DNA of 64,000 bases from Spirochaetales bacterium (GTDB lineage: Bacteria > Spirochaetota > Spirochaetia > Treponematales > UBA12059). Position 1 is the stretch's first letter, and every line of letters starts with the position of its first letter. Shown here one piece after another: positions 414 through 16,592 of this stretch. A program made the translations under genes and the position numbers. The notes below the pieces were generated by a model. The model was not told where the DNA came from. It was given only the letters and a program-made list of their open reading frames with translations, and made no database searches. Location: contig JAFGNN010000069.1 of the NCBI GenBank assembly GCA_016926955.1, forward strand, positions 1 through 64,000. The letters are read 5' to 3'.

Positions 414-1256
414 ATGACGCAAAAGTCCGGCTTCGCGGCCGTCGACAACGACAGAAGGCTCATAAAGGACAACGCCCTCGCGATCCGCGAGGCGTTGTTC
501 TCCTGCGTCACCGACACGCAGGTCGAGTGCGCCGTCGGCTTCGCACGCTACCTCTCCAGGGCGGGGCTCAACGCCGAGAACTACTGGCTCTTCCTCCGGC
601 TGGTCGTCACCAACAACCCGTGGGTCATCGACGAGCTGCTTCATGAACGCGAGCCGCGACTGCTCTTCTCGACCATACAGCCCAACGCCGAACTGGTCGA
701 GGCTTCCTTCCAGGCCTTGTTCTCCAGGCATCCGGAGGAAATCTACCCGAAGGCCCTCGAAGCCTTGCTCGGGGTCGTGGAAAACGCCTACTTCGATCCC
801 GATGACGGATTCAGGCTCAGGCGGGTTTCCATAATGGACATCAACACGCTCGGGAAATTCCTGCTCAAGGACGAACCGCAGGAGCATGCGCAGAACCGCC
901 TCGTCCTCGAAATTCTTGACAGGCTTACCCACCTCGGCGAGTATTACGGGGAGCCGGACAAGAACGTGCTCGCCAAACACGCCTTCAACGTCCGGTTCGC
1001 CTACTTCGACCGGACCCGGGACCTCGTCGACGCCATCCCGCATCCGCTGCTGGTCAGGATGCCGGACCGGAACGCCGCGGAACCCGAGGAGGACTTCGCG
1101 GAACTCGTCGCGAAGCGTCGGCTCCGCAAGCGCGACGAGCGCGGACGCTTCGTCAGGGAGCCCGCCTCGGCGGCGCCCGTCGCGGCCCCCGCAGCGAAAC
1201 CGAAACCCGCGAAAACCTCACCCGCCAAGCCGCGGCAGCGGAAGCCGAAGGCCTGA
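414..1256 (+). CDS. Paralogous helical protein A of the phospho-signalling locus, unknown function
   Basis: I do not recognise this 280-residue protein, but it is clearly homologous to three other proteins in this locus (3265-3963, 3983-4699, 4766-5467). Shared blocks in order are FARYLSRAGLN, a WVID block, a TIQPN motif, IYPKALEALLGV, DINTLGK and AFNVRFAYFD...LVDAIP. No catalytic motif, signal peptide or membrane segment is visible and the fold looks helical. This copy alone carries a basic, Ala/Pro/Lys-rich tail from about residue 225. The ATG at 414 is chosen because it follows a GGGGAA purine stretch and because similarity to the paralogs starts just after it. The next gene begins 33 bp downstream and encodes a phosphatase. 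Confidence 0.85.
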   Translation: MTQKSGFAAVDNDRRLIKDNALAIREALFSCVTDTQVECAVGFARYLSRAGLNAENYWLFLRLVVTNNPWVIDELLHEREPRLLFSTIQPNAELVEASFQALFSRHPEEIYPKALEALLGVVENAYFDPDDGFRLRRVSIMDINTLGKFLLKDEPQEHAQNRLVLEILDRLTHLGEYYGEPDKNVLAKHAFNVRFAYFDRTRDLVDAIPHPLLVRMPDRNAAEPEEDFAELVAKRRLRKRDERGRFVREPASAAPVAAPAAKPKPAKTSPAKPRQRKPKA

Positions 1257-1289
1257 CGTCGGGTCCGCGCGACAGGCGCGGAGGTTTCC

Positions 1290-2255
1290 GTGGCTCGATC
1301 CCCCATTGCCGGAAAGGTTCCGGCACCGACCGGGACGCTCGTCGATCCGAAACGGTACGAAGGCCTCGCCTTGGTCGAGCGCGCCATCGAGGTCGCCCTG
1401 TCGTATCCGGGGCGTCCCAAGGACTCGCTCGGACGTCCGGGCGGACTTCTCGACCTTCCGGTCGACCTGAAGCCGATAATAGTCGGCGACCTGCACGCCA
1501 ACGTCGAGCATTTGAAAGCCATCCTGAAACACCATGGCAACGAGGACGGAGTCGCGGCGGGGAAAGCCTGCGTGCTTATCGTGGGCGACACCGTGCATGA
1601 CGACCGGACCGGCTGCATGAAGGACATGACCGGTTCGTTGTCGATGCTCGAAGAGGTGCTCTCGCTGCTCGTCCGGTATCCCGGGCGGATCTACTACCTC
1701 AAGGGCAACCACGACACCTTCGACGAGCGCCTCCGCAAGTCCGGCATCGCCCAGGGGATGGAATTCCGCAAGGCGCTGCAAACGGCCAAGGGGGCCGACT
1801 ACGTGGCGGCGGTCCAGCGCTTTTTCGACTCGTTGCCGCAGTTCGCCATCGGTCCGGGTTTCGTCGTGACCCACGCCGGTCCGCCGCGGGGCGGTTGCGA
1901 CAGGAGGGACCTGATCGATATCGCTTCCAACCCCGACCTGCAGATGCAGCTGATGTGGAACCGTGTCAACGAGTTCCACGGCATGCCGAGCGCAAAGGAA
2001 TACGGGGCGGCCGACATAGCCGTAACACTCGAGCGGCTTGGACTGCCGGCAGATACGCACTTCATCGTGGGCCACAACCCGCTCTGGGGCGACGGAGGAC
2101 GAACCGGGGTTTGGCCCGACGTCATCGGCATCAAGCACCACCACATCATCTACTCCGGTTCGGGAAGCCGCGCCCCGTATTTCACGCTCGAGAACGGCCA
2201 CCTCGTCGTTCGTCTTTCCGTCGATCCGGAACCGGAGGTCTATTACTATGGATGA
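1290..2255 (+). CDS. PPP-like calcineurin-family metallophosphatase
   Basis: This 321-residue protein has the metallophosphoesterase motif series: GDLHAN near residue 66, GDTVHDD near 97, GNHD near 139, THAG near 193 and GHNPLW near 258. The order and spacing fit the PPP serine/threonine phosphatase branch, but the second motif deviates from the usual GDxVDRG. That may alter substrate choice. The start is a GTG preceded by GAGG. The gene's last 8 bases overlap the start of the kinase-like gene at 2248, so the two are probably translated as a pair, phosphatase plus kinase. The physiological substrate is unknown; a diadenosine tetraphosphatase-like activity cannot be excluded. Confidence 0.85.
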   Translation: MARSPIAGKVPAPTGTLVDPKRYEGLALVERAIEVALSYPGRPKDSLGRPGGLLDLPVDLKPIIVGDLHANVEHLKAILKHHGNEDGVAAGKACVLIVGDTVHDDRTGCMKDMTGSLSMLEEVLSLLVRYPGRIYYLKGNHDTFDERLRKSGIAQGMEFRKALQTAKGADYVAAVQRFFDSLPQFAIGPGFVVTHAGPPRGGCDRRDLIDIASNPDLQMQLMWNRVNEFHGMPSAKEYGAADIAVTLERLGLPADTHFIVGHNPLWGDGGRTGVWPDVIGIKHHHIIYSGSGSRAPYFTLENGHLVVRLSVDPEPEVYYYG

Positions 2256-3162
2256 ACGCGAACGGCTGTACGCCGAGATGGACGATCCCGAGCTCGGCGG
2301 ATATTTCTGGCTCGACCGCGACGCCAAAGCTGCGCTCGCTTCCTTCGATTCGCTCGAGCTCCGCCTCGACGAGCGCCAGGACGACGTGCCGTTCAACGCC
2401 GCCGTGAAAGGATATAGCGGCGCCAAGGACGCGAACGGCCATCCATGGATCGTCAAGACCGCAGACGCCAAGGAAGAAGTGCTATACCACCGGCTGTGCA
2501 CGCTCGCCTTCCTTCTCGACCATCTTATGGGGACCCTCGCAGCCCCGACCGGCTTGGTGAAGATCGGGGGACGCCACTACCGGGTTACCAAGGTGGTCCG
2601 GCAGGCGGTCCAGATCAGTTCCTACGACTACCTGGACCAGCCGTACATCGGGATACTCCGGGCTGACCTGGTGAACCGCTGGCTCATGTTTGACGAGGAC
2701 CGCAATCCGAACAACTACCTTGTCGTCTTCAGCAGGAAGAACAAACCCTTCGTTGTGGCCATAGACTACGACAAGGCGGACCTTGCGGCGACCACGATGA
2801 AGATCACAGGCAATCCCGACCATTTCGGCTGGCATCGGTCGGAAAAGACCCGTTTCCTGACCCTTCTCCGCCCCGAGCATTTCGAAGGCGTCCCGATCGA
2901 AGTGTTCGACGCGCGGCTTAAGGCCATGATGGCCATTCCCGCGGAGACCCTCCACCGATTGGCCGCGGACTTGCTCGAAGGTTTCGCGGAACCGGACTAC
3001 ACCGAGCGAATCGTGCGCAACATCCTGGAGCGTCGCGCCTACATCGACGCCTACTTCCGCACCATGTTCAAGCCGGCCTCCGAGACCGTCGACACGAGCC
3101 ACACCGACGATTACTCGGCGTTCGGCGAAAGCTTCCTTAAAATGCACAAGGGACGTACTTGA
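2248..3162 (+). CDS. HipA / PI-kinase-like protein kinase fold enzyme
   Basis: The 304-residue protein has features of the atypical kinase superfamily that includes HipA and the phosphatidylinositol 3/4-kinases. A candidate ATP-binding lysine lies in HPWIVK (Lys70). A D-x4-N catalytic loop is seen in FDEDRNPNNYLV (Asp151, Asn156), and AIDYD (Asp173/Asp175) would be the metal-binding segment. No HTH is seen. The ATG at 2248 follows GGAGG and overlaps the phosphatase stop codon, so the two products are likely made together. The gene lies between paralogs A and B. A role in phosphorylating a partner encoded here is inference. HipA-type toxin function is less likely because no HipB-like antitoxin is adjacent. 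Confidence 0.7.
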   Translation: MDERERLYAEMDDPELGGYFWLDRDAKAALASFDSLELRLDERQDDVPFNAAVKGYSGAKDANGHPWIVKTADAKEEVLYHRLCTLAFLLDHLMGTLAAPTGLVKIGGRHYRVTKVVRQAVQISSYDYLDQPYIGILRADLVNRWLMFDEDRNPNNYLVVFSRKNKPFVVAIDYDKADLAATTMKITGNPDHFGWHRSEKTRFLTLLRPEHFEGVPIEVFDARLKAMMAIPAETLHRLAADLLEGFAEPDYTERIVRNILERRAYIDAYFRTMFKPASETVDTSHTDDYSAFGESFLKMHKGRT

Positions 3163-3182
3163 CAAAAAAAACATGGAGAAAT

Positions 3183-3211
3183 TTGACAGCGGCCTGACGC
3201 CCTCCTAGACT
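3183..3211 (+). promoter_or_regulatory. Sigma-70-type promoter of the paralog B-C-D operon
   Basis: TTGACA (3183-3188) is separated by 17 bp from TAGACT (3206-3211), placing transcription start near 3218. This lies just after the kinase-like gene and 50 bp before the ATG at 3265. It also rules out the in-frame GTG at 3217 as the true start of the next gene. A second TTGACA overlaps the kinase stop codon at 3159 but has no good -10 partner. Confidence 0.7.
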
Positions 3212-3264
3212 TTCGCGTGAGATCGGCTGGAAACTCGCAAAGCCGTCGATACGCGGAGGTTACG

Positions 3265-3963
3265 ATGGACAAACAGACCGAGAAGGTGATCGAGCGGACC
3301 TGGTCGAAGGAGACCATCATGCAGGTCGAGCTCGGCATCCTCCAGAACATGCTCGGGAGCCGGACCGAGGAAGCCGTGGAAGCGTCCATCAGCTTCGCCC
3401 GCTTCCTGAGCACCTCGGGGCTCAACAACGACAATTACCCGCTCTTCCTCAAGTTGCTCGAGGTGGAGAACCATTGGGTGATCGACACGATGGTCGCGGA
3501 CAAGGATCCCTTCCTGTTGATCAGCCCCATCCAGCCGAACAGCTACCTGATCTACCAGGCGTTCAAGCTGCTGACCAAGTGGCATCCGGGGGGCATCTAT
3601 CCGATCACCCTGTCGGTCGTGCTCGGCGTCCTGCAGGCCGCCTACGCCTCGCCGAAGGACGGCTACAAGATCTACGAGGTCTCCATCAACGACGTGAACA
3701 ACCTCGGCAAGCACCTGAACAAGGAAACAGGCCAGGACGATCCGAACAACCGCTGCATCCTGGACATCCTCGACCGGCACGGTTCGCTGGCTGGCACCTC
3801 GAACGATCCCGGCAAAGAGCAGATGGCTCGCCAGGCCAACGCCATCCGGACCTTCTTCTTCGACAAGCGCAAGAAGATGGAGGACGTCATCCCGCAGGTC
3901 CTCCTGGTGAAGTCCGACTACGTCGCCAAGGAAACCGCGCCTCGCCAGGTCTTCGTCGACTGA
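3265..3963 (+). CDS. Paralogous helical protein B, unknown function
   Basis: This 232-residue member of the local family contains FARFLSTSGLNNDNYPLFL, WVID, SPIQPN, IYPITLSVVLGVLQAAY, DVNNLGKHL, NRCILDILDRH and a C-terminal FFDKRKKMEDVIPQVLL. It is highly charged and soluble-looking, with no signal peptide or recognised domain. The ATG at 3265 has an ideal GGAGGT 5 bp upstream and sits downstream of a strong promoter. The stop is 19 bp before the next paralog, so B, C and D probably form an operon. Conservation of the IQPN and DVNxLGK blocks across all four copies suggests a shared binding surface. I do not know the family function. Confidence 0.85.
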   Translation: MDKQTEKVIERTWSKETIMQVELGILQNMLGSRTEEAVEASISFARFLSTSGLNNDNYPLFLKLLEVENHWVIDTMVADKDPFLLISPIQPNSYLIYQAFKLLTKWHPGGIYPITLSVVLGVLQAAYASPKDGYKIYEVSINDVNNLGKHLNKETGQDDPNNRCILDILDRHGSLAGTSNDPGKEQMARQANAIRTFFFDKRKKMEDVIPQVLLVKSDYVAKETAPRQVFVD

Positions 3964-3982
3964 CGCCGGAAAGGAGAAGGCA

Positions 3983-4699
3983 ATGAAGGAACTTTTCGAG
4001 AAGAAGCAGGACTGGACCGACGAGGAAGTCTTCAACATCGAATACAGCATGCTCAAGGGCATCATGGGCACCCGCACCGTCGAGGCGGTCGAGGCGGCCA
4101 TCACCTACGCGAGCTACCTGAACTTCACCGGCATCACCAACGGGAACTATCCTGTGTTCCTGAAAGTCCTGACCACCAGAAACCATCATGTCATAGACGC
4201 GTTGCTCGGCACGCGCGACCCCTTCCTGTTCATGAGCTCGATCCAGCCCAACTACTTCATCGCGGCCACCTGCTTCAGTATTTTGGCCAAGTACCGCAAG
4301 GGCGAGATCTACCCCAAGACACTCGGCATCATCCTCGGCGTGTTTCAGGCGACCTACAACTCGCCGCTCGACGGCTACCGTATCTACCCGGCAACTGTCG
4401 CCGACGTGAACAGCCTGGGCAAGCACCTGAACGAGGACAAGGGCCAGGACGACCTCCTGAACCGTTCGATCCTCGACATCCTCGACAAGCTGTCGAGCCT
4501 CGAAGGCCAGAACATCGACGAGGATATGGAAGACCTCGCCGTCCACGCCCACAACATCCGCAACAACTTCTTCGACTCGACCAAGCGCCTCGTCGACGTG
4601 ATCCCCGAAGTGCTGCTCCGCATCGAACCGAACATGGACAAGGACGTCCTGCCGCGGAAGCGCGTACCGCTGACCGAGGCTGAGGGCGCCAAGCAGTAA
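3983..4699 (+). CDS. Paralogous helical protein C, unknown function
   Basis: The 238-residue protein aligns over its full length with B and D: ASYLNFTGITNGNYPVFL, HVID, SSIQPN, IYPKTLGIILGVFQATY, DVNSLGKHL, NRSILDILDKL and FFDSTKRLVDVIPEVLL. The first Trp of the WVID block is replaced by His here. The ATG at 3983 is preceded by AAGGAGAAGG. No transmembrane segment or export signal is present, so it is probably cytoplasmic. A GC-rich hairpin lies between this gene and D, which may tune the relative amount of D. Confidence 0.85.
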   Translation: MKELFEKKQDWTDEEVFNIEYSMLKGIMGTRTVEAVEAAITYASYLNFTGITNGNYPVFLKVLTTRNHHVIDALLGTRDPFLFMSSIQPNYFIAATCFSILAKYRKGEIYPKTLGIILGVFQATYNSPLDGYRIYPATVADVNSLGKHLNEDKGQDDLLNRSILDILDKLSSLEGQNIDEDMEDLAVHAHNIRNNFFDSTKRLVDVIPEVLLRIEPNMDKDVLPRKRVPLTEAEGAKQ

Positions 4700-4707
4700 G
4701 AGCGATA

Positions 4708-4742
4708 GCCGGCGCGGTGGTCATCCCGACTTTCGCGCCGGC
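4708..4742 (+). other. Intercistronic hairpin between paralogs C and D
   Basis: A perfect 9-bp inverted repeat (4708-4716 with 4734-4742) with a 17-nt loop lies between C and D. It has no U-tract, so it is more likely an mRNA processing or stability element than a terminator. Confidence 0.5.
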
Positions 4743-4765
4743 ATGCATACCAGGAGGACGGACAC

Positions 4766-5467
4766 ATGCTCGCGCATCCTTGGCCCCTGTGGTCCGAGAA
4801 CGAGATCGACGCGCTCAAGCTCGGCTATCTCAACGACGTTATCGACTGCAATGACGGCTTCGGGGCCTTCGCGGCCCTCGCGTTCGCCCACTACCTGATC
4901 AACAAGGTCGGCATCAATTCCGACAACTACCCGATCTACTTCCGTCTGCTCGAATCGAAGAACCGCTGGGTGGTGGATACCTTGGTCGGCCAGAAGGATC
5001 CGGCCAAGTTGTTCGGGTCTATCCAGCCGAACACGTTCATGCTCAAAGAATGCTTTACGATGCTCACCGACTGGAAGCCGGGCGAGGTCTACCCGAAGAC
5101 GTTGCAGGTGATCTACGGGCTCCTGACCGTCTGTTACGAAATTCCCGAGGAAGGCTACCGGCTCTATCCGCTGACCGTCAACGATGTCAACAATCTGGGC
5201 AAGCACCTGGACAAGGCCAAGGACCAGATGGATCCGCTGAACCGGATCGTGCTATCGGTGCTCGACCGGGTCGCGGGTCTGATAGAGCCCCAGAAGCCGT
5301 TGCCTTCGCGCGAGATCCAGGATGTGGCGCTTCAAGCGAACAATATCCGCGGCAAATTCCTGGACATGACCAAGAAGCTGAACGAGGCCATTCCGGACGT
5401 CCTGCTCGAGCGCGGCGATTTCACCGCGGCCGAAGTCAAGCCGGATGTGCCCCCGATCCAGGCCTAG
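4766..5467 (+). CDS. Paralogous helical protein D, unknown function
   Basis: This 233-residue protein is the fourth local paralog. It shows NKVGINSDNYPIYF, WVVD, GSIQPN, VYPKTLQVIYGL, DVNNLGKHL, NRIVLSVLDRV and KFLDMTKKLNEAIPDVLLE. It is the most divergent of B, C and D; for example IYP is VYP and the ILDI block is VLSV. The ATG at 4766 has AGGAGG 8 bp upstream. A strong terminator-like hairpin follows the stop at 5493, ending the B-C-D transcript before the pseudokinase gene. No enzymatic motif is visible. Confidence 0.85.
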   Translation: MLAHPWPLWSENEIDALKLGYLNDVIDCNDGFGAFAALAFAHYLINKVGINSDNYPIYFRLLESKNRWVVDTLVGQKDPAKLFGSIQPNTFMLKECFTMLTDWKPGEVYPKTLQVIYGLLTVCYEIPEEGYRLYPLTVNDVNNLGKHLDKAKDQMDPLNRIVLSVLDRVAGLIEPQKPLPSREIQDVALQANNIRGKFLDMTKKLNEAIPDVLLERGDFTAAEVKPDVPPIQA

Positions 5468-5492
5468 GACGACCGACCGGCGGCCCGAGCCG

Positions 5493-5518
5493 ACCGCCGC
5501 CCTCCGGGGCGGCGGTTT
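5493..5518 (+). terminator. Intrinsic terminator after paralog D
   Basis: A perfect 10-bp stem (5493-5502 with 5507-5516) and 4-nt TCCG loop is followed by TTT. It lies 26 bp after the stop of paralog D. The U-tract is short, so termination may be partial and allow read-through into 5562. Confidence 0.6.
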
Positions 5519-5561
5519 CCGTAACCCGTCCCCGCGACGGATCTGAGGCCGGAGGCCATAC

Positions 5562-7685
5562 GTGGAAGGCCGTGAAATTGTAAACGACTGCTACATAATC
5601 CAGGGAAGCCTCGGCACCGACGCGTGTTGCGACCTTGTGGGAGCGAGCGCCATGTTCGCCGCCACTCGCTTCCTCCTGCGCTTCTTCAAGCCGGGCATTC
5701 CGCCCGAGGCCATTGAGGCATTCCGGATCCGCACGGTTGGATCGTACAACGTCCGGCACCGCGCCATTGTCGACGCGATCGAAATTGATCGATCGGACGC
5801 GCGGGTATTCGTGTCGAGCGAGTTTGGCGGACAGAAACCGCTGAGGAGCGTGCTCGCGGAAGGCGCGGCCTTTCCCTTGGAGCTGGCGGTGGGCTTCGTC
5901 CTGGAGTTGGCGCAGGGGCTCGACGCATTCCATTCGCGCGGTCTGGTCTACGGCACGCTCGACGCGGATTCGGTCTGGGCGGCCAGGGACGCCGGCGAGG
6001 TGATAGAGCTGCGGCTTCTCAAACCCGGTTATCTGGATCTCGTTCCATGGTACGACCGGGAAGATGGCGGAACGCTGGAACGCTTCGCCTACCTTGCCCC
6101 GGAGGTCAAGGGCGTCGCACCCTACGAGATCGGCCCCTGGAGCGACGTGTATTCCTTGGGAGTCCACTTGTACCGCTTCTTCACGGGGCTACTGCCGTTC
6201 AGGAGGCAGGCCGCGGAACGCGCTAGGGGAAAATCGGTCTCGGTGCTGCACGTAGCCAAGGCTCTTGCGCGACGCGGGGTTCCGGAATCCCTGGTGCGCG
6301 TCGCCGTCCGCTGCGTGCGCCGCAACCCGAAGCTCCGCTACCGTTCCTGCGTGGAGCTAATTACGGATTTGAAAGAAGTGCTGGCGCAGCGCTCGAGGGA
6401 AAACGAGGCCGCCGGTTTGCCGGATCCGGCACGGGGCATCGCGTACCTGAACCGCGAGCGCGAGCGGCTCGGCGCGACGCAGTACGTGCGTACCCTCGAA
6501 ACGGTGGAATATTTCCGCGCCGTCGCGCAGGCCGGAGTCGTGCCGGCCGAATCGGGCGAGGCGCGGCGCTTTCCCTTCGATCCGGGGCTGGCTGCCATCG
6601 ACGGGATGGGCGAACTCGAGGAGCTCGAGTCGGTGGAGTCCGAGGATGACGACGCCTGGGAAGCGGTCCGAATCGCCGCCGAGTCGATGAAGGCGGTCGA
6701 GGCGGAACGGGTTCGGGGCATCGCATCCATGGCCGACGAGATGACGAAGCGCCGTCCTTACTCGGAACGGGCGTACGATTCAGGCCGGACGGAAGGAGCG
6801 TCTTCCACAGTTCCGGAAGCGCCTGCCGGAGGCCCCGCCCCGCGGCCGGCGGCATTCGCCGAGGCCGGTTCGCTGAAGGGCGCTCCCGTCGCGCCGCCGG
6901 CGCCTGCCGCGGCTCCCGTCGAGCGTAGCGGCACGGGGAAAGGCGCGGAGCCGTCTGCGGCGAGCACGGAGGAATTTGGACGCGGGCCGGCGGCACACAA
7001 GTCGGAGCCGCGTCGAGGCGCGGCAGCGTCTACACGGAGGGCGGCCCCGAAGCCGGCCCTGGCGGTCGAAGAAACGCCGGTGATCCGTTGGCGCGCCGAA
7101 CGGGTGAGGTCGGAGGCGGCTGCTTCGCGCCTCTTGGCCGGGTTCGACTTGGCCAAATCCGGCCGAGGATCTTTCGGTTTCCTGCAAAGACCCGCGGACG
7201 CCCGGACGCTCGCCGTGCTCCGGCGCGCTCTCGCGCTCATGGGGGAGCAAGGAATCCTCGTGGACGCGGGTTCTTGCGCGGCTGGATCCGAGGCTGTGTG
7301 CGCGCGGATCGTTGCGGCGCTCAGGACCTTCGTCGGGGCGAGGCCGCGACGCGAACGGAGGAAGCTGGCGGGGCGCAGCGAGGCGTTCATGGCCTCGCTG
7401 CCCCTGCCTTCATATCAGGAGCTTGTCGGCGGGGACTTGGCTGCACACGCGCGGATCGATGCGACCGCCCGCGCTTTGGCGGGTTTCGGTTCAAGATCGC
7501 GTCCCCTGGTTCTCGTAGTCGGGGATGCCGAGCGGGCCGCCCGCCCGCTGCACGAGCTGTTCCTCGCGCTCGCTGTCGCCGCGCGAAGGACGCCCTTCTG
7601 CGGCATCGCCTTCCATGGCGACGCGCAAGCGCCTGACTGGCACACTTTGGCACGTGGCCGGCCGGACCCGGCCGGGCGACGTTAA
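5562..7685 (+). CDS. Large pseudokinase with Ala/Pro-rich linker and degenerate ATPase-like C-terminus
   Basis: The first 270 residues of this 707-residue protein have the layout of a Hanks-type Ser/Thr kinase: an N-lobe, then HSRGLVYGTLDADSVW (125-139), APEVKG (179-184) and SDVYSLGVHLYRFFTGLLPF (194-213). The catalytic residues are lost: the HRD segment reads VYGT, and the DFG position reads LKPGYL near 153-158. Residues about 390-500 are an Ala/Pro/Glu-rich linker. The C-terminal 200 residues resemble a worn AAA/STAND-type ATPase (LVLVVGDAERAARPL) without a clear Walker A. It starts at GTG 5562 after GGAGG. It is probably a scaffold or allosteric partner of the local phosphatase and kinase; that role is inference. 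Confidence 0.75.
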   Translation: MEGREIVNDCYIIQGSLGTDACCDLVGASAMFAATRFLLRFFKPGIPPEAIEAFRIRTVGSYNVRHRAIVDAIEIDRSDARVFVSSEFGGQKPLRSVLAEGAAFPLELAVGFVLELAQGLDAFHSRGLVYGTLDADSVWAARDAGEVIELRLLKPGYLDLVPWYDREDGGTLERFAYLAPEVKGVAPYEIGPWSDVYSLGVHLYRFFTGLLPFRRQAAERARGKSVSVLHVAKALARRGVPESLVRVAVRCVRRNPKLRYRSCVELITDLKEVLAQRSRENEAAGLPDPARGIAYLNRERERLGATQYVRTLETVEYFRAVAQAGVVPAESGEARRFPFDPGLAAIDGMGELEELESVESEDDDAWEAVRIAAESMKAVEAERVRGIASMADEMTKRRPYSERAYDSGRTEGASSTVPEAPAGGPAPRPAAFAEAGSLKGAPVAPPAPAAAPVERSGTGKGAEPSAASTEEFGRGPAAHKSEPRRGAAASTRRAAPKPALAVEETPVIRWRAERVRSEAAASRLLAGFDLAKSGRGSFGFLQRPADARTLAVLRRALALMGEQGILVDAGSCAAGSEAVCARIVAALRTFVGARPRRERRKLAGRSEAFMASLPLPSYQELVGGDLAAHARIDATARALAGFGSRSRPLVLVVGDAERAARPLHELFLALAVAARRTPFCGIAFHGDAQAPDWHTLARGRPDPAGRR

Positions 7686-8792: not shown

Positions 8793-10796
8793 TCACTTCG
8801 AGGGGTCGTCGCCGTAGAAGTGCCACTTGCGGGCGAACTTCGTGCCGTTCCACCAGCGCTTGAGGAAGGGAACGACCCAGACGTCGAAGCCGAAGGCGCG
8901 GCCCGCGCCGCCCATCATCAGGATGCCCGCGAACACGAACCAGAGCTGGTCCCAGGCGAACATGCCGGAGAAGGTGAAGATGAAGCACATGCCGATGCTG
9001 GCCACGGCCGCCACCCAAGTGAAGAGGCCGCCGAAGAGCGCGAGGCCGATGCCGATCTCCATGGCGACGATCATGAGCTGGAAAGCCTGGAAGGGCAGGT
9101 AGGCGAAGATGCCGTCCATGAAGGTCTGCCTGAACCAGGTGACGAAGCCGGAGTCGTAGGGAATGATGGCCTGAGTCAGGTCCCAGACCTTCCCGAAGGC
9201 CTGCGTGGCGCCTTCGGCGACGGCTTCGGCGCCCTCTGCCACCCACTCGCTGGCGGCGGCGACCGCCTCGGCCGCGGGTTCGACCCACTCGCCGGAAGCG
9301 GCCGCGGTGGCCTCGACGGCGGCTTCGGCGCCCTCGACCCATTCGGCCGAGGCGGCGCTGGTGGCCTCCGCGACCTTCTGGCCGGCCTGCACCACGCCGG
9401 TTGAGAACATCCAGCCGGACTTGGAGCCGGAAGCCCAGGCCAGCCAGCCTTCGCCGATCTTGTTGACGCCCTCGAACACCCACATGAGACCGAGCCACAT
9501 GCGCAGGAGCAGCGGCCAGTAGCCGCGCACCTTGTAGGAAGCAAAGGCGCCGATGAAGGAGCGGCCGTTCTTCATGTCGAGGAATTCGTGCTTGACGTAT
9601 TCCCAGACCTGGTTGACGCCCGCGATGTTGAGCAGATACCAGCAGTTGATCATGTGCTTCATCGCCATGGCGATGAAACCCTTGGTCTTCATGCCGCCGG
9701 CGTTGGCCACCGCGTAGCGGCCGCCGATCGAAACCATGAAGCCGTGGAAATTGGACTTGAACTCGTGGCGCTTCCCGGTACCTTCGATCTCTTCGATGAT
9801 GTTGGCGGCCGCGACCTCGGCGGTCTGGTGTGCCCCTTCGACGATCTGGGGAACCGGCTTGCCGTCTTCGAGCAGGAAGGCGTTGTCGCCGGCGACGTAG
9901 ACGCCCGGATGCCCGACCGCGCCCAGGCCGGAGTCGGCCTGGAGCCGGCCGCGGCCGCGCTCGGCCGTGGCGAGCCCGAGTCCGGCCGCGAAGGAGGAGC
10001 CGGAGACGCCGCAGGTCCAGATGAAGGTCTCGGTCTCGATGGCGCCCTTGTCCTTGAGGAGGACCTTGCCGGGCTCGGCGCCGACGATGGGCGTGTTGAG
10101 CATGCACTCGCAGCCGTGCTTCTGGAGATACTTCTCGGTGGCCGCGCGAAGCGGTTCCTCGAGGATGGGAAGGATGGAGGGCAGGGCCTCGATGTTGAGG
10201 ATCTTGACCTCGGACCGGTCGATGTGGTGCTTGCGGCACATGACGTCGCGGTACTCGAGGAGCTCGCCGAACATCTCGATGCCGGTGAAGCCCGCGCCGG
10301 CGACCACGAAGGTCAGGAGCTTCCGGCGCTTGTCCTGATCGGGCTCGGCGGCGGCGCGGGTCCAGACGTCCTCGACGTGGTTGCGGAGCTTCATGGCGTC
10401 GTCGAAGGACCAGAGCGTGAAGCTGTGCTCCTTGATGCCGGGAATGCCGAAGAATTCCGGCTGGGCGCCGAAGCCGACGACGAGGTAGTCGTAGGCGTAC
10501 TCGCCCCGCTCGGTCTTGACCACCTTCTTGTCGAGCTGGACGCCGGTGACGGTGTCGAGGACGACGTCGATCTTCTTGGTGGCGAATATCTTGCGGAAGG
10601 GCACCTGGACCGACTCCGGCTCGGTGCGCCAGCCGGCGACCTCGTGGAGCTCGGTCATCAGGGTGTGGAAGGGAAGCTTGTCGATGAGCGTGATCTTCAC
10701 GTCATCGCGCTTGCGGAAGCGCTTCTCCAGGATCTTTCCGGCCCAGACGCCAGCGTAGCCGCCGCCCAGGATCAGGATCCGCTTCTGGTCTGCCAT
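8793..10796 (-). CDS. Type II NADH dehydrogenase with C-terminal DoxX-like membrane domain
   Basis: Residues 1 to about 400 are a two-dinucleotide-fold flavoprotein: KRILILGGGYAGVWAG for FAD, VVAGAGFTGIEMFGEL for NADH and VYVAGDNAF for the second FAD contact. This identifies an NDH-2 that passes electrons from NADH to quinone. It continues to 667 residues, against about 400-450 for soluble-type NDH-2. The added part is a DoxX-like region with hydrophobic segments (for example LLLRMWLGLMWVFEG) interrupted by an Ala/Glu-rich repeat near residues 500-555 with recurring SEWV/AEWV units. The ATG at 10796 is preferred over the upstream one at 10847 because it has AGAGGAG just before it. The membrane domain would tether the enzyme to the inner membrane. 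Confidence 0.9.
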   Translation of the reverse strand: MADQKRILILGGGYAGVWAGKILEKRFRKRDDVKITLIDKLPFHTLMTELHEVAGWRTEPESVQVPFRKIFATKKIDVVLDTVTGVQLDKKVVKTERGEYAYDYLVVGFGAQPEFFGIPGIKEHSFTLWSFDDAMKLRNHVEDVWTRAAAEPDQDKRRKLLTFVVAGAGFTGIEMFGELLEYRDVMCRKHHIDRSEVKILNIEALPSILPILEEPLRAATEKYLQKHGCECMLNTPIVGAEPGKVLLKDKGAIETETFIWTCGVSGSSFAAGLGLATAERGRGRLQADSGLGAVGHPGVYVAGDNAFLLEDGKPVPQIVEGAHQTAEVAAANIIEEIEGTGKRHEFKSNFHGFMVSIGGRYAVANAGGMKTKGFIAMAMKHMINCWYLLNIAGVNQVWEYVKHEFLDMKNGRSFIGAFASYKVRGYWPLLLRMWLGLMWVFEGVNKIGEGWLAWASGSKSGWMFSTGVVQAGQKVAEATSAASAEWVEGAEAAVEATAAASGEWVEPAAEAVAAASEWVAEGAEAVAEGATQAFGKVWDLTQAIIPYDSGFVTWFRQTFMDGIFAYLPFQAFQLMIVAMEIGIGLALFGGLFTWVAAVASIGMCFIFTFSGMFAWDQLWFVFAGILMMGGAGRAFGFDVWVVPFLKRWWNGTKFARKWHFYGDDPSK

Positions 10797-10966
10797 ATGG
10801 ACTCCTCTCGAGTATCGGTGCTGAAGCGTGGTATAGATTTTGGACATTCAGTATATTGGAGGAAGATCGTAGGACGGTCAAGAGCCTAATTTATATATAA
10901 AAAAGGTTTCTCTATTGCGAATATCATATATAGCGGCCCATTTGACGAGGTCGCCCGGAGGGACGC

Positions 10967-11804: not shown

Positions 11805-13766
11805 ATGGATATCGACAAGTTCGGGCTTCCGCCCGCAGTGAGCGAGGCCGCCGAGGCGGCCGGATACGGATCGATGACCGAGCGGGCGGCGGCTGTCGCC
11901 GAGCTGGCCTTCGGGAAAGGACGCGACGCGCTGGTCGTGACCCGCTCGGGTCCGGCCGGCGAGGCGGTCTGGCTCCTGCCCCTGCTCCGATGGATCGGTG
12001 AAATGGACGGGCGAAGGGCCCTGACGGTCGCCGTCGCCGACGAGCATGTCGGCGGAGCGCTCGACAGGATCCGCGCCCTTGCCGGGCCCGCCGGACTGGA
12101 AACCACCGCGCTCGGCCGCATCCCCGACGCGTCGGACGCCGACGCCTCCATAGTGGTCTGCGCCGCTCCGACCCTCGCGGCGCGGCTCGGCTCCGGATCC
12201 TTCGACCTGGATGGCTTCGGCCTGCTCCTCGTGCTCGACGCGGAGAGGCAGGAAGCCGGGGCGATCGACGCCCTGGCGGCCCGTCCGGGTGCGGACGGAG
12301 CGCGGCGAGTCCTGGCCTTCTGCGAACGCCCCGGCGCCGGGGCGCGCAGGGTGGTCGACAGCCTGGCTCCCGGGGCCGAGACGCTCGAGCTGGACGCGGG
12401 CGCGGACCAGGCCAGGCTCGCGCCGCGCAGGATCCTGCGTTCGCCCTCCGCCGACAAGCCGCGGCTCGCCGCCGGCCTGATCCGCTCGGGGGCAGCCGGC
12501 CCCGTCGCGGTGCTGTGCAACCTCGGCGCCACGGCCCGCGACTTGCACGCCACGCTCCGCGACTCGGGGCTCGCCTCGAAGCTCGTGGATGAGGGAATCC
12601 GACCCGGACGCGCCCTGGACCTGCTCCGCGGAGCGAAAGGCGCCCGGACCGCCTTCGTCATGACCGACGATCAGGTTCCCGCCTTTCCTCACGCCAGCTT
12701 TCCGCTGGTCATCTCATACGACCTGCCCCTCGAAGGCGAGCCCTGGCTGGCGCGCTCGCTCCTTTTGGACCTCGCGGCGCCGGACGCCGAACTGGTCGGC
12801 ATCGCCTGCGAACGCTACGACTTCGGGCTTCCCGCCATCGAGCGCGTGCTCGGCTCGAGCCTTGCGGTAAGCGACGCGGATCCGTCCCTGTTCGCGGAGC
12901 TCGAGGTCCGTCCCGCCGCCGGCGATCGGGGACGCGAGCGGGCGGACGAGCGGAGGCGCGACGGGAGCCGGCGCGAAGGCGGCGCCCGGGAAGAACAGCG
13001 CGGCGCTCCGCGCGGCGGCCAGCGGGATCGGCGCGAGCAGCGGGGCGAGCGGCGAACGGGCGGCGAAGGACCGGATCCGCAGGCGGCGGCGGCGATCCGC
13101 GCCGGCATCTCGGCCATCACCGGGCAGTTGCGGGCCGAGGTCCCCGCCCGCGTCGCGGCGGAGGCGAATCCCGAGCGCGCTGACGGAAGAGCCCCGGAGC
13201 CCGGCGCGCGCAAGCGACGAAAGCGCGGCCGCGGGAAGTCGCGGCCCTCCGAGGGCTCCCCCGCCTCCGCGGGGCCGGGCCGGAGCGGAACCGAGGCGAG
13301 AGCGCAGCGCCCCGCCGGGGGCGAAGGCGGCGGAGCCGAGGGACGGCGCGGAAAGGGCGGCCGGAAGGGCGACGGCAGGCGCGGGAGCGGCGCCGGAGGC
13401 ACGCGTCGCGAAGGCGCCCGGCGCGCGAACGAGCCGGGGGCGCTCGAAGGTGCCGATCCCTACGCCCTGCCCATGGAGGAGAGGCTCAGGCTGTACCGCG
13501 AGAAATACGCCTCGGGCAAGCCCGGCAGCGGCCGACGCGAAGGACCGAAGCGCCAGGGTGTTCCGGGGGGCTCGAAGCGGCCGGACGGACGCAAGATCGG
13601 GCCGGACCGTACGCCCCGCGCGGGGAGCCAGGAGAACCGCGAGCCCGCCCGGAGGGATCCCGCCCCGAAGCGATCGGGCGAAGCCCCGGGCGCGCCCGAC
13701 GAGGCGAAGGCCAGGAAGGGCTTCTTCGGCCGGATATTCGGCGCTCAGCCCAAAGGCGGCAAGTGA
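11805..13766 (+). CDS. Degenerate DEAD-box-helicase-derived protein with Arg/Gly-rich tail
   Basis: The first 70 residues keep the outline of a DEAD-box N-terminus: FGLPP...GYGSMTERAA in place of the Q motif, then GRDALVVTRSGPAGEAVWLLPLL, where the Walker A has lost its GKT. The DEAD box reads VLDAERQ and the SAT-like motif reads AFCERPG. ATP hydrolysis is therefore unlikely. From about residue 370 to the end (653) it is a low-complexity Arg/Gly/Glu/Ala tail, as in RNA-binding RGG extensions. The ATG at 11805 follows GAGAGACC. It may be an RNA-binding scaffold for ribosome or RNA-degradation complexes, which is inference. The ancestry is visible; the function is not. Confidence 0.65.
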   Translation: MDIDKFGLPPAVSEAAEAAGYGSMTERAAAVAELAFGKGRDALVVTRSGPAGEAVWLLPLLRWIGEMDGRRALTVAVADEHVGGALDRIRALAGPAGLETTALGRIPDASDADASIVVCAAPTLAARLGSGSFDLDGFGLLLVLDAERQEAGAIDALAARPGADGARRVLAFCERPGAGARRVVDSLAPGAETLELDAGADQARLAPRRILRSPSADKPRLAAGLIRSGAAGPVAVLCNLGATARDLHATLRDSGLASKLVDEGIRPGRALDLLRGAKGARTAFVMTDDQVPAFPHASFPLVISYDLPLEGEPWLARSLLLDLAAPDAELVGIACERYDFGLPAIERVLGSSLAVSDADPSLFAELEVRPAAGDRGRERADERRRDGSRREGGAREEQRGAPRGGQRDRREQRGERRTGGEGPDPQAAAAIRAGISAITGQLRAEVPARVAAEANPERADGRAPEPGARKRRKRGRGKSRPSEGSPASAGPGRSGTEARAQRPAGGEGGGAEGRRGKGGRKGDGRRGSGAGGTRREGARRANEPGALEGADPYALPMEERLRLYREKYASGKPGSGRREGPKRQGVPGGSKRPDGRKIGPDRTPRAGSQENREPARRDPAPKRSGEAPGAPDEAKARKGFFGRIFGAQPKGGK

Positions 13767-13795
13767 GCCGGGGAGCCCGGCGGCCTTGATCCGGC

Positions 13796-13835
13796 GGGGG
13801 CCGGGACGGATGCGCGAGCTTTCGTCCCGGCCCCC
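13796..13835 (+). terminator. Terminator-like hairpin after the DEAD-derived gene
   Basis: A perfect 13-bp inverted repeat (13796-13808 with 13823-13835) with a 14-nt loop lies 30 bp after the stop. No U-tract follows, so it may be a Rho-assisted terminator or 3' stabiliser. Confidence 0.55.
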
Positions 13836-13975
13836 GTCGTACGCACAGGGTGGCGCCCTGAGCGTGAAGCCCGAAGCCGCGCCTCGGGGCGGGCGAAGCG
13901 AGCTGGAAAATCGCGGGCTGTTCTTCCATACTTTTCCCGTACCCGTTGGCGTCGAAATCGTTTTCTGTCTGTCGA

Positions 13976-14005
13976 TTGACAGCTAAACCGGTTTTACTTT
14001 ACGCT
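13976..14005 (+). promoter_or_regulatory. Putative promoter of glgP
   Basis: TTGACA (13976-13981) is followed after 18 bp by TACGCT (14000-14005), 50 bp upstream of the glgP start. The -35 is perfect and the -10 is weak (3 of 6). The local sequence is clearly AT-richer than the surroundings. Confidence 0.5.
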
Positions 14006-14054
14006 TCGATGCGCCGCATGAGCGGCCAACCATCGTCCCGAGAGGGGTTTCCCA

Positions 14055-16592
14055 ATGAAGATAATCGCGCATACCGTGAAGCCGAAGATTCCCGCGCGCC
14101 TCAAGGCGCTCGAGGAGATCGCGCACAACCTGTGGCTGTCCTGGAATTTCGACGCGGTGATGCTCTTCATCCGCCTCGACTACGAGGTCTGGCTCCAGAG
14201 CCGGCAGAACCCCGCGCGCATGCTCGGCATGGTCAGCCAGGACCGCTACGAGGAGCTGGCCAAGGACGATTCCTTCCTGGCCGCCCTGGACGAGGTGGCG
14301 GCCGCCTTCGAGCGCTACAAGAAGGGCGAGGCCTGGCACAAGGGCAAGGGCAAGGAGATGATCGCGTACTTCTCGATGGAGTACGGCCTGGACGTCTCGC
14401 TGCCCATCTATTCGGGCGGCCTCGGCATCCTGTCCGGGGACCACATGAAGACCAGCTCCGACATCGGCCTGCCCCTGGTGGGCGTCGGGCTCCTGTACCG
14501 GCAGGGCTATTTCCAGCAGTACCTGAACGCGGACGGCTTCCAGCAGGAGTCCTACCCCGAGAACGACTGGTACAACATGCCGGTGCACCGCTGCCTCGAC
14601 GCCAAGGGCGAGGCGGTCAGGATATCCGTCGAGATGGCGGGCCAGGTCGTCGTAGCCCAGGTCTGGGAAGCGAAGATCGGGCGCTCGTCGCTCTACCTGC
14701 TCGACACCAACATCGACGACAACACCCCCGAGAACCGCCTGATCACCGCCACGCTCTACGGCGGCGACAAGGAGAACCGCATCCGCCAGGAGCTCCTGCT
14801 CGGCGTGGGCGGCATCCGCGCCCTGCGCGCGCTCGGCATCGACATCGGCGTGGCGCACATGAACGAGGGCCACTCGGCCTTCCTCGCGCTCGAGCGCATC
14901 CGCGAGCACATGCGCAACGACGGCTTCACCTTCCGCGAAGCCGCCCAGGCCGTGTGGCCGACCCACCTCTTCACCACGCACACCCCGGTGCCCGCCGGCA
15001 ACGAGCGCTTCGGCATCGACCTGATGGAGCGCTACTTCCGCACCTGGGCCCAGGAGCTGGGGCTCGAGTGGCACGAGTTCCTGGCGCTCGGCCGCGAGCG
15101 GCCCGAGGACATGAGCGAGCCCTTCTGCATGACGGTGCTGGCGCTCAAGCTCTCCGCCTACTCCAACGGCGTCGCGGACCTGCACGGCGTCGTCTCGCGC
15201 GACATGTGGAAGGGCCTCTGGGCCGGCCTGCCCATCGACGAGGTGCCGATCGGCCACGTCACGAACGGCGTGCACCCGCGCACCTGGATCAACCACGGCC
15301 TTCTGGACCTGCTCGACCGCTATTTCGGCCCCCGCTTCCTCGAGGAACCGACCAACCTGGACATCTGGGACCGGATCGACCGCGTGTCCGACGAGGAGCT
15401 GTGGCGCACCCACGAGCGCCGCCGCGAGCGCCTCGTGGTGTTCGCGCGCGACCGCCTGCGCAAGCAGCTGAAGCGCATGGGCGCGAGCGACATGGGACTC
15501 GTGCGCGCGGAGGACGCCCTCTCGCCCAACACCCTGACGCTCTCGTTCGCGCGGCGCTTCGCCACCTACAAGCGCGGCGCCCTGCTCCTCTCCGACCCGG
15601 ACCGCCTGCTCAAGCTGCTCTCGGACCGCGACCGGCCGATCCAGCTGATCTTCGCCGGCAAGGCCCACCCGCACGACCTCGCGGGCAAGGAGCTGATCAA
15701 GGAATTGGTGCACTTCTCGCGCCGCTCGGACGTGGGCAGCCGCATCGTGTTCCTCGACGACTACGACATGACCATGGCCCGCTACCTGGTGTCCGGCTCC
15801 GACGTCTGGCTCAACACCCCGCGCCGGCCCCTCGAAGCCTCCGGCACCAGCGGCATGAAGGCCGGCATGAACGGCGTGCTCAACTGCTCGGTGCTCGACG
15901 GCTGGTGGGCCGAGGCCTACACGCCGGAGATCGGCTGGGCCATCGGCAAGGGCGAGCAGTACTCCGACGAGGACCTGCAGGACGAGGTCGAGTCGAAGGC
16001 CCTGTACGACATCCTCGAGAGCGAGGTCATCCCGACCTTCTACGAGCGCGGCCGCGACGGCCTGCCCCGCGGCTGGATCAAGCTGATGAAGAACTCGATG
16101 CGCGAGGTCGGCAAGCAGTTCGCGAGCCACCGCATGCTCATGGAGTACGCCGAGAAGTTCTACTACCCCGCGCTCGACAATTACCGCGAGCTCGCGAAGG
16201 GCAAGTTCCTCGACGCGAAGGACACGGCGGCCTACCTGGACAAGATCTACCGCGAGTGGCCCGGCGTGGCCATCCCCGAGCTCTCCACCGACGCGAAGCC
16301 CATCATGGAGCGCGGCGACAAGGTGACCGCGACCGCGAAGGTCAAGCTCGGCGCGCTTTCGAGCGACGAGGTCGAGGTGGAGCTCTACCACGGCGCCGTC
16401 TCGAGCCAGGGCGCCATCGTGGACGCGGAGCGCATCCCGATGAAGCCGGTCAAGAAGGCAGGCGAGTTCGTCGAGTACTCCGCCGCCGTGGTCTGCACGC
16501 GCACCGGCCAGCAGGGCTACTCCGCGCGCATCCTGCCCAAGCACGACAAGCTGGCGCACCCGTTCATACCTGGCCTCGTGAGATGGGCATAG
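14055..16592 (+). CDS. glgP: Alpha-glucan (glycogen) phosphorylase
   Basis: This 845-residue GT35 enzyme would release glucose 1-phosphate from glycogen or maltodextrin, using pyridoxal phosphate. Landmarks are AHNLWLSWNFDAVMLF at the N-terminus, YFSMEYGLDVSLPIYSGGLG near residue 105, HMNEGHSAF near 271, TTHTPVPAGNERF near 312, RRFATYKR near 500 and the cofactor segment EASGTSGMKAGMNGVLN with Lys near 602. This is the short-N-terminus GlgP type (TIGR02094-like) rather than the GlgP/MalP type. The ATG at 14055 has AGAGGGG upstream. The gene is monocistronic between a promoter and tandem hairpins. The cell therefore probably stores or imports alpha-glucans. Confidence 0.95.
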   Translation: MKIIAHTVKPKIPARLKALEEIAHNLWLSWNFDAVMLFIRLDYEVWLQSRQNPARMLGMVSQDRYEELAKDDSFLAALDEVAAAFERYKKGEAWHKGKGKEMIAYFSMEYGLDVSLPIYSGGLGILSGDHMKTSSDIGLPLVGVGLLYRQGYFQQYLNADGFQQESYPENDWYNMPVHRCLDAKGEAVRISVEMAGQVVVAQVWEAKIGRSSLYLLDTNIDDNTPENRLITATLYGGDKENRIRQELLLGVGGIRALRALGIDIGVAHMNEGHSAFLALERIREHMRNDGFTFREAAQAVWPTHLFTTHTPVPAGNERFGIDLMERYFRTWAQELGLEWHEFLALGRERPEDMSEPFCMTVLALKLSAYSNGVADLHGVVSRDMWKGLWAGLPIDEVPIGHVTNGVHPRTWINHGLLDLLDRYFGPRFLEEPTNLDIWDRIDRVSDEELWRTHERRRERLVVFARDRLRKQLKRMGASDMGLVRAEDALSPNTLTLSFARRFATYKRGALLLSDPDRLLKLLSDRDRPIQLIFAGKAHPHDLAGKELIKELVHFSRRSDVGSRIVFLDDYDMTMARYLVSGSDVWLNTPRRPLEASGTSGMKAGMNGVLNCSVLDGWWAEAYTPEIGWAIGKGEQYSDEDLQDEVESKALYDILESEVIPTFYERGRDGLPRGWIKLMKNSMREVGKQFASHRMLMEYAEKFYYPALDNYRELAKGKFLDAKDTAAYLDKIYREWPGVAIPELSTDAKPIMERGDKVTATAKVKLGALSSDEVEVELYHGAVSSQGAIVDAERIPMKPVKKAGEFVEYSAAVVCTRTGQQGYSARILPKHDKLAHPFIPGLVRWA

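Follow-up and report, generated by a model that had tools for sequence, protein, structure and literature searches.

Several cassettes for reversible phosphorylation are already known in bacteria. RsbW/STAS/SpoIIE systems act through reversible protein serine phosphorylation and, like the locus described here, combine a phosphatase with a kinase of their own. Each enzyme-like component of the locus also resembles described proteins. Its kinase (KIN) is like HipA/HipT and CtkA kinases in fold class and in the layout of catalytic loop and metal site, and its DR(N)xxN and ID[YF]D are similar to DRHxxN and IDFG, two motifs found in PI3/PI4 kinases (PI4KA, PI4KII-alpha). Its phosphatase (PPP) shares with PPP-family or calcineurin-like phosphatases (NinI-like, lambda PP-like) the Metallophos match and all metal-site motifs, while the N-terminus of its pseudokinase (PSK) aligns along its length with Hanks-type kinases such as PknB/Stk1 (4eqm, 4.7e-12).

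The locus differs nevertheless from all of these systems. KIN and PPP share no homology with RsbW and SpoIIE, and the helical paralogs encoded beside them (PARs) are not STAS proteins, although some relatives embed two of them in an RsbW/RsbV/SpoIIE module. Unlike HipA/HipT and CtkA, KIN has neither HipA_C nor an adjacent HTH antitoxin, its partners being the PARs and a PPP phosphatase; unlike PI3/PI4 kinases, it is a protein of about 300 aa with no Pfam PI3_PI4_kinase match and a bacterial operon context. The PAR-linked PPPs form a distinct subfamily carrying an extra segment, NExxxxPSxKEY, and, unlike active Hanks-type kinases, none of the 23 PSK homologs retains the HRD or DFG aspartate. 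An undescribed helical family is combined with an undescribed HipA/PI4K-like kinase family and a pseudokinase, and no description of this PAR/KIN/PPP/PSK arrangement was found in open-licence PMC papers.

Organization of the locus

The window, i.e. the whole stretch of 64,000 nucleotides that was analysed, belongs to a 3.4-Mb spirochaete genome. Seven genes were confirmed at positions 414-7685, all on the plus strand, in the order PAR-A, PPP, KIN, PAR-B, PAR-C, PAR-D and PSK. The frame of PAR-A (414-1256) is open from 117, and the ATG at 414 agrees with the family; the encoded protein ends in a Lys/Pro/Ala-rich tail starting around residue 230. PPP follows at 1290-2255, and the start of KIN (2248-3162) overlaps its end by 8 bp. 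PAR-B (3265-3963), PAR-C (3983-4699), PAR-D (4766-5467) and PSK (5562-7685, GTG start) complete the block. Upstream of PAR-B lies a promoter-like site, TTGACA-17-TAGACT (3183-3211, plus strand); two sites of this type were found against 0.9 expected by chance, a weak signal from which PAR-B, PAR-C and PAR-D might possibly be transcribed on their own. The upstream neighbour of the block, on the minus strand, is presumably a partial mntP-like gene and its convergent downstream neighbour a polyprenyl-synthase-like gene, both names being our reading of the sequence. Farther along the window, the minus strand encodes at 8793-10847 a FAD/NADH-dehydrogenase-like protein with a hydrophobic C-terminal part and an unusual-looking, Ala/Glu/Trp-rich repeated insert (EWVE...).

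PARs form an unrecognised family of helical paralogs

The four full-length paralogs noticed in the first-pass annotation are true homologs, with pairwise identities of 35-43% (42% over 194 aa between PAR-A and PAR-B, E=2e-54; 43% over 218 aa between PAR-B and PAR-D, E=5e-62), and no additional copy was found elsewhere in the window's own genome. One of the four motifs that had been claimed to define them, IQPN, is indeed present in all four window proteins. The other three vary between paralogs: IYP is VYP in PAR-D, DVNxLGK is DINTLGK in PAR-A, and VIP is AIP in PAR-A and PAR-D. Invariant or nearly invariant residues of the family are N57, Y58, N69, D74, G133, K149, Q157, N162, R195 and D200.

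Profile and sequence searches of Pfam, NCBIfam, PHROGs and PDB matched the PARs to no known family, as anticipated in the first-pass annotation; the sporadic weak matches were not reproducible and none was common to more than 4 of the 141 members. Their helical nature, likewise predicted, agrees with an AlphaFold model of PAR-B built on 141 aligned sequences, which consists entirely of helices (mean pLDDT 94). Foldseek retrieved no significant PDB match for this model (best E 0.12, TM at most about 0.43-0.45), the weak top matches being helical-repeat proteins, none of them significant. Viral models gave no significant match either, and a viral origin was dropped, nothing having matched among viral models or PHROGs. 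The possibility that a PAR is an internal repeat was also dropped, self-comparison being not significant.

A careful maximum-likelihood tree of 74 PAR domains supported groups A (94/84), B (99/94) and D (95/91), and placed C together with a fifth group, E (84/91). In an earlier FastTree of all PARs, the support of D was only 11 and the fifth group was mixed in; the 74-domain tree separated D. Group E occurs in the SAR324/Desulfobacterota arrangement (loci L057, L065 and L069 among them) and in L061, L075 and L080, and has no member in the window. Each complete locus of the window type has one member of A, B, C and D. Branches are short for B, the best conserved paralog, and for its conserved partner C, and long for the fast-evolving A and D; D is found wherever KIN and PPP are complete. 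In one relative (L067), PAR-B is fused to PAR-C in a single 442-aa frame, which suggests that the two proteins act together.

KIN distantly resembles HipA and PI4 kinases in fold

No sequence-family match to KIN was obtained in Pfam, NCBIfam, PHROGs or PDB sequences. The best Foldseek match of its AlphaFold model (pLDDT 90) is PI4KA (9b9g, 1.9e-5, TM-score <0.5), and HipA, CtkA and PI4KII-alpha match as well. A HipA-like fold was recovered with 3dnu, 3tpv and CtkA 3akl (E 3e-4 to 5e-4, probability 1.00), the TM-scores of 0.38-0.45 to HipA/CtkA structures denoting a distant relationship. In 31 sequences, D151, R152, N153, N156 and D173 are invariant, and the catalytic motif DEDRNPNN and metal-binding motif ID[YF]D (IDYD in the window) are invariant or nearly so; we take these motifs to correspond to DRHxxN and IDFG of PI3/4 kinases. 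P48, F49 and A51 are also invariant and K70 nearly so, the Gly-rich loop being not assigned in the model. When criteria for HipA-homologous kinases (PMC8262856) were applied, none of the 31 members matched Pfam HipA_C at E<=1, and neither a HipB-like HTH gene nor another antitoxin was found beside KIN, whose neighbours in 33 loci are PPP and PARs. Since both tests fail, the label 'HipA toxin' should not be applied to KIN. It could alternatively be a lipid or small-molecule kinase.

PAR-linked phosphatases keep an additional segment

PPP is a member of Metallophos (Pfam 6.8e-11) and matches PHROG 246, a NinI-like Ser/Thr phosphatase (3e-7). Its motifs GDLHAN, GDxxHDD, GNHD, HAGP and VGHN are invariant in 34 PAR-linked homologs; they include all calcineurin-like metal-site motifs (GDxH, GDxxx(D/H), GNH(D/E), H, GH), and D67, H69, D100, N140, H141, H195 and H262 are invariant in these 34 members. 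The additional segment, VNEFHGMPSAKEY (residues 226-238; 1965-2003, plus strand), has the pattern NExxxxPSxKEY, whose conservation is 94-100% across the 34 PPPs linked to PARs. Four PAR-less genomes (G063, G147, G163 and G245) possess orphan PPPs with intact catalytic motifs, in which the segment is eroded and mostly gone: 8/24 conserved cells are kept in them versus 191/224 elsewhere (Fisher 1.3e-7, on cells that are not independent, coming from four orphan sequences, two of them from one family). Residues 226-238 may therefore be a pointer, short of proof, to a surface contacting a PAR or KIN. Since PPP persists alone in G063 and the three other PAR-less genomes, additional substrates of this phosphatase are possible. 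One locus, L080, has two divergent PPP copies (14666-16069 and 13404-14474).

PSK is a less conserved, catalytically dead component

PSK begins with a pseudokinase (about residues 1-285), continues through a long linker of low complexity and ends in a C-terminus that weakly resembles AAA (AAA_16 4.4e-4, under the Pfam cut-off). Residues 63-260 are Pkinase-like (Pfam 1.7e-10), and its initial description as a pseudokinase agrees with the HRD and DFG aspartates missing in 23/23 homologs. It is a less conserved component of the block (28/56 loci). In L035 (15403-17300) the gene is divided between two overlapping frames (425 aa and 209 aa), for which a frameshift or an assembly error may be responsible. 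PADLOC defence models did not match PAR, KIN or PPP and matched PSK through generic Ser/Thr-kinase models only; an anti-phage defence system was dropped, the matches being limited to the generic kinase domain of PSK.

The block is an old unit with several arrangements

A survey of 84,980 species genomes recovered 55 loci beyond the window, mostly from Spirochaetota, with some from SAR324, Desulfobacterales and other Deltaproteobacteria. Among public records, the closest is L031, a Spirochaetes MAG whose PAR-A is 95% identical to that of the window. Counting the window, PPP is present in 38 of 56 loci, KIN in 33 and a PSK-like gene in 28. PPP and KIN are adjacent and co-directional in 33 loci, and the overlap of phosphatase and kinase reported in the first-pass annotation is found at exactly 8 bp in the window and in many relatives. 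The block is an old unit.

Five arrangements recur among the loci. The window type (i) is A-PPP-KIN-B-C-D-PSK. In type (ii), A-PPP-KIN-PSK faces B-C-D, and a membrane protein with a LysM-like end is often divergent from A. Type (iii), found in SAR324 and Desulfobacterota, has four PARs and a convergent PPP, with KIN at another site of the genome. In type (iv), B-C only, the operon reads HATPase_c_2 / c10 / B / C / c11 / STAS / alpha-beta hydrolase / STAS, and in L077 its neighbouring genes are 3-40 bp apart. B-C, HATPase_c_2, two STAS and the alpha/beta hydrolase share one operon in L072, L076, L077, L079 and L082, and L081 and L083 are truncated B-C partner-switching loci; a SpoIIE phosphatase lies 2-4 kb from the B-C operon in L072, L077, L079 and L081. 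HDOD and ParA-like genes were seen near this operon in several of these seven loci. RsbW/STAS/SpoIIE partner-switching genes are absent from the window block. In type (v), from two Desulfobacterales, B-C precedes a gene for a receiver-domain protein that may contain a coiled coil. In two Desulfobacterales, small frames directly 3' of PAR-C (L058:10802-11026 and L056:10977-11204) weakly resemble c10 (E 0.026 and 0.55) and could represent a third component.

The LysM-like membrane protein belongs to an undescribed family, in which a conserved helical cytosolic domain is followed by a disordered linker, a single hydrophobic span and, at the C-terminus, a LysM-like domain; it is encoded beside PAR genes in 13 loci (e.g. 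L070:3222-5018, L067:12494-14533, L073:6393-8060). No full-length copy of its gene was found in the window's own genome or in several other PAR carriers. Its N-domain was considered as a distant PAR, an idea that was dropped as hhalign shows no similarity.

KIN and PPP follow A, D and E rather than B-C

Of 393 genomes from the phylum, 19 carry PARs; KIN was found in 16, once in each, and all 16 are PAR-bearing (hypergeometric 9e-26, and 8e-19 at genus level, figures overstated by the relatedness of the genomes). Together with the adjacency of PPP and KIN in 33 loci, this gives good support to the view of a dedicated system, and the neighbours of the PARs are conserved together in relatives, in line with the grouping first proposed. 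KIN is missing from three PAR-bearing genomes, one of which encodes the B-C fusion while the other two are 81-83% complete.

Nine B-C-only genomes, with two PAR matches each (three pieces in one), have neither KIN nor PPP, whereas both are present in five genomes of arrangement (iii), which have the larger paralog set and lie outside the main spirochaete set. KIN and PPP consequently go with A, D and E and not with B-C. B-C is the core of the PAR system, and kinase and phosphatase track the A/D (and E) paralogs, which corrects the first-pass annotation. On the tree, the B-C-only state corresponds to one deep clade plus the L067 lineage, which has none of A, D, KIN or PPP; these make roughly two independent events. 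G063, a same-genus genome of 99% completeness, has neither PAR nor KIN; the corresponding site holds mntP and the prenyl-synthase gene, and between them only a PPP of 301 aa. This orphan PPP (L096, contig G063:C17, around 149655-150518) marks the site at which this relative lost the PAR block.

Discussion

Starting from the homology of the PARs, the fold class of KIN, the intact catalytic motifs, the operon structure, and the co-occurrence and co-loss of the genes, we lean towards reading the locus as a self-contained phosphorylation switch, with a B-C core, A and D as links, KIN as writer, PPP as eraser, and PSK. Beyond these observations, we infer a physical B-C complex, PARs that serve as substrates, a direction of the switch, a role for PSK and an output. 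PAR-B and PAR-C, two all-helical domains that probably associate as a heteromer, would make up the conserved core and effect the output, while the faster-evolving PAR-A and PAR-D would link this core to its writer and eraser. KIN would phosphorylate at least one PAR protein and the overlapping PPP-type phosphatase would undo this modification; PSK would most likely be an allosteric or docking subunit. In most B-C-only lineages, an RsbW-like kinase, STAS proteins and a SpoIIE phosphatase would stand in for KIN and PPP.

That PARs are substrates or scaffolds of reversible phosphorylation, as initially suggested, is a reasonable inference. No PAR site was singled out as a phosphosite when loci with and without KIN were contrasted. 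T77 and S199 of PAR-C (S/T versus D/E) were rejected, the pattern following clades and being broken by the KIN-bearing L075 and L080; the contrast was also undone by the 'KIN-less' SAR324/Desulfobacterota loci, which have KIN elsewhere in their genomes. The RsbW/STAS/SpoIIE setting of B-C in relatives is the strongest hint that B-C may be regulated via phosphorylation of something bound to it.

KIN and PPP might instead modify a phosphoinositide-like or nucleotide signal for which the PARs would be receptors and not phosphoproteins. PI4KA is the best fold match of KIN, PI4KII-alpha matches too, the DR(H/N)xxN motif is PI3/4K-like, and the invariant polar residues K149, Q157, N162 and D200 of the PARs could line a pocket. 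We consider this unlikely, as the protein kinases HipA and CtkA match KIN about equally well and the replacement module uses protein serine phosphorylation in known systems. About as improbable, in our estimation, is a structural role, in which the PARs would be structural or scaffold proteins of an unrecognised, envelope-linked assembly, with KIN and PPP doing no more than timing how it is put together. Several loci do place the LysM-like protein, with its cytosolic domain, long linker and single predicted membrane span, next to PAR-A or the fused B-C gene, and the weak top fold matches of PAR-B are helical-repeat proteins; yet these solenoid matches are not significant, and the full-length LysM gene is absent both from the genome of the window and from several further carriers.

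The fold class shared with HipA/CtkA, and the patchy occurrence of the block, lost within one genus, would also fit a toxin-antitoxin-type cassette in which KIN arrests growth through an outside target (e.g. an aminoacyl-tRNA synthetase), the PARs restrain it and PPP repairs the damage. This appears less probable still: besides the missing HipA_C and HipB-like neighbour, three to five PARs with PPP and PSK far exceed the needs of an antitoxin, B-C survives without KIN, which is unexpected of an antitoxin, and KIN lies apart from the PAR block in SAR324/Desulfobacterota genomes.

Returning to the phosphorylation switch, the LysM membrane protein and the receiver-domain protein found beside B-C in some lineages, neither of them universal, hint at envelope or spatial outputs. 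Tentatively, the PARs may represent a new class of signalling effectors, whose B-C heteromer would serve in at least two unrelated machines of reversible phosphorylation (HipA/PI4K-like with PPP; RsbW with STAS and SpoIIE) and, thirdly, placed beside a receiver-domain protein, the extra paralogs and the pseudokinase having evolved as the interface of the first machine.

PAR and KIN are two uncharacterised families new to bacterial phospho-signalling, and the cassette that joins them is conserved in Spirochaetota, SAR324 and Desulfobacterota. Direct, testable predictions of contacts follow from the exchange of kinase and phosphatase for non-homologous ones around a constant B-C, from the fusion of B to C, and from the joint loss of A, D, KIN and PPP. 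The cassette could also reveal roles of a bacterial pseudokinase and of a HipA-like kinase beyond toxin-antitoxin systems.
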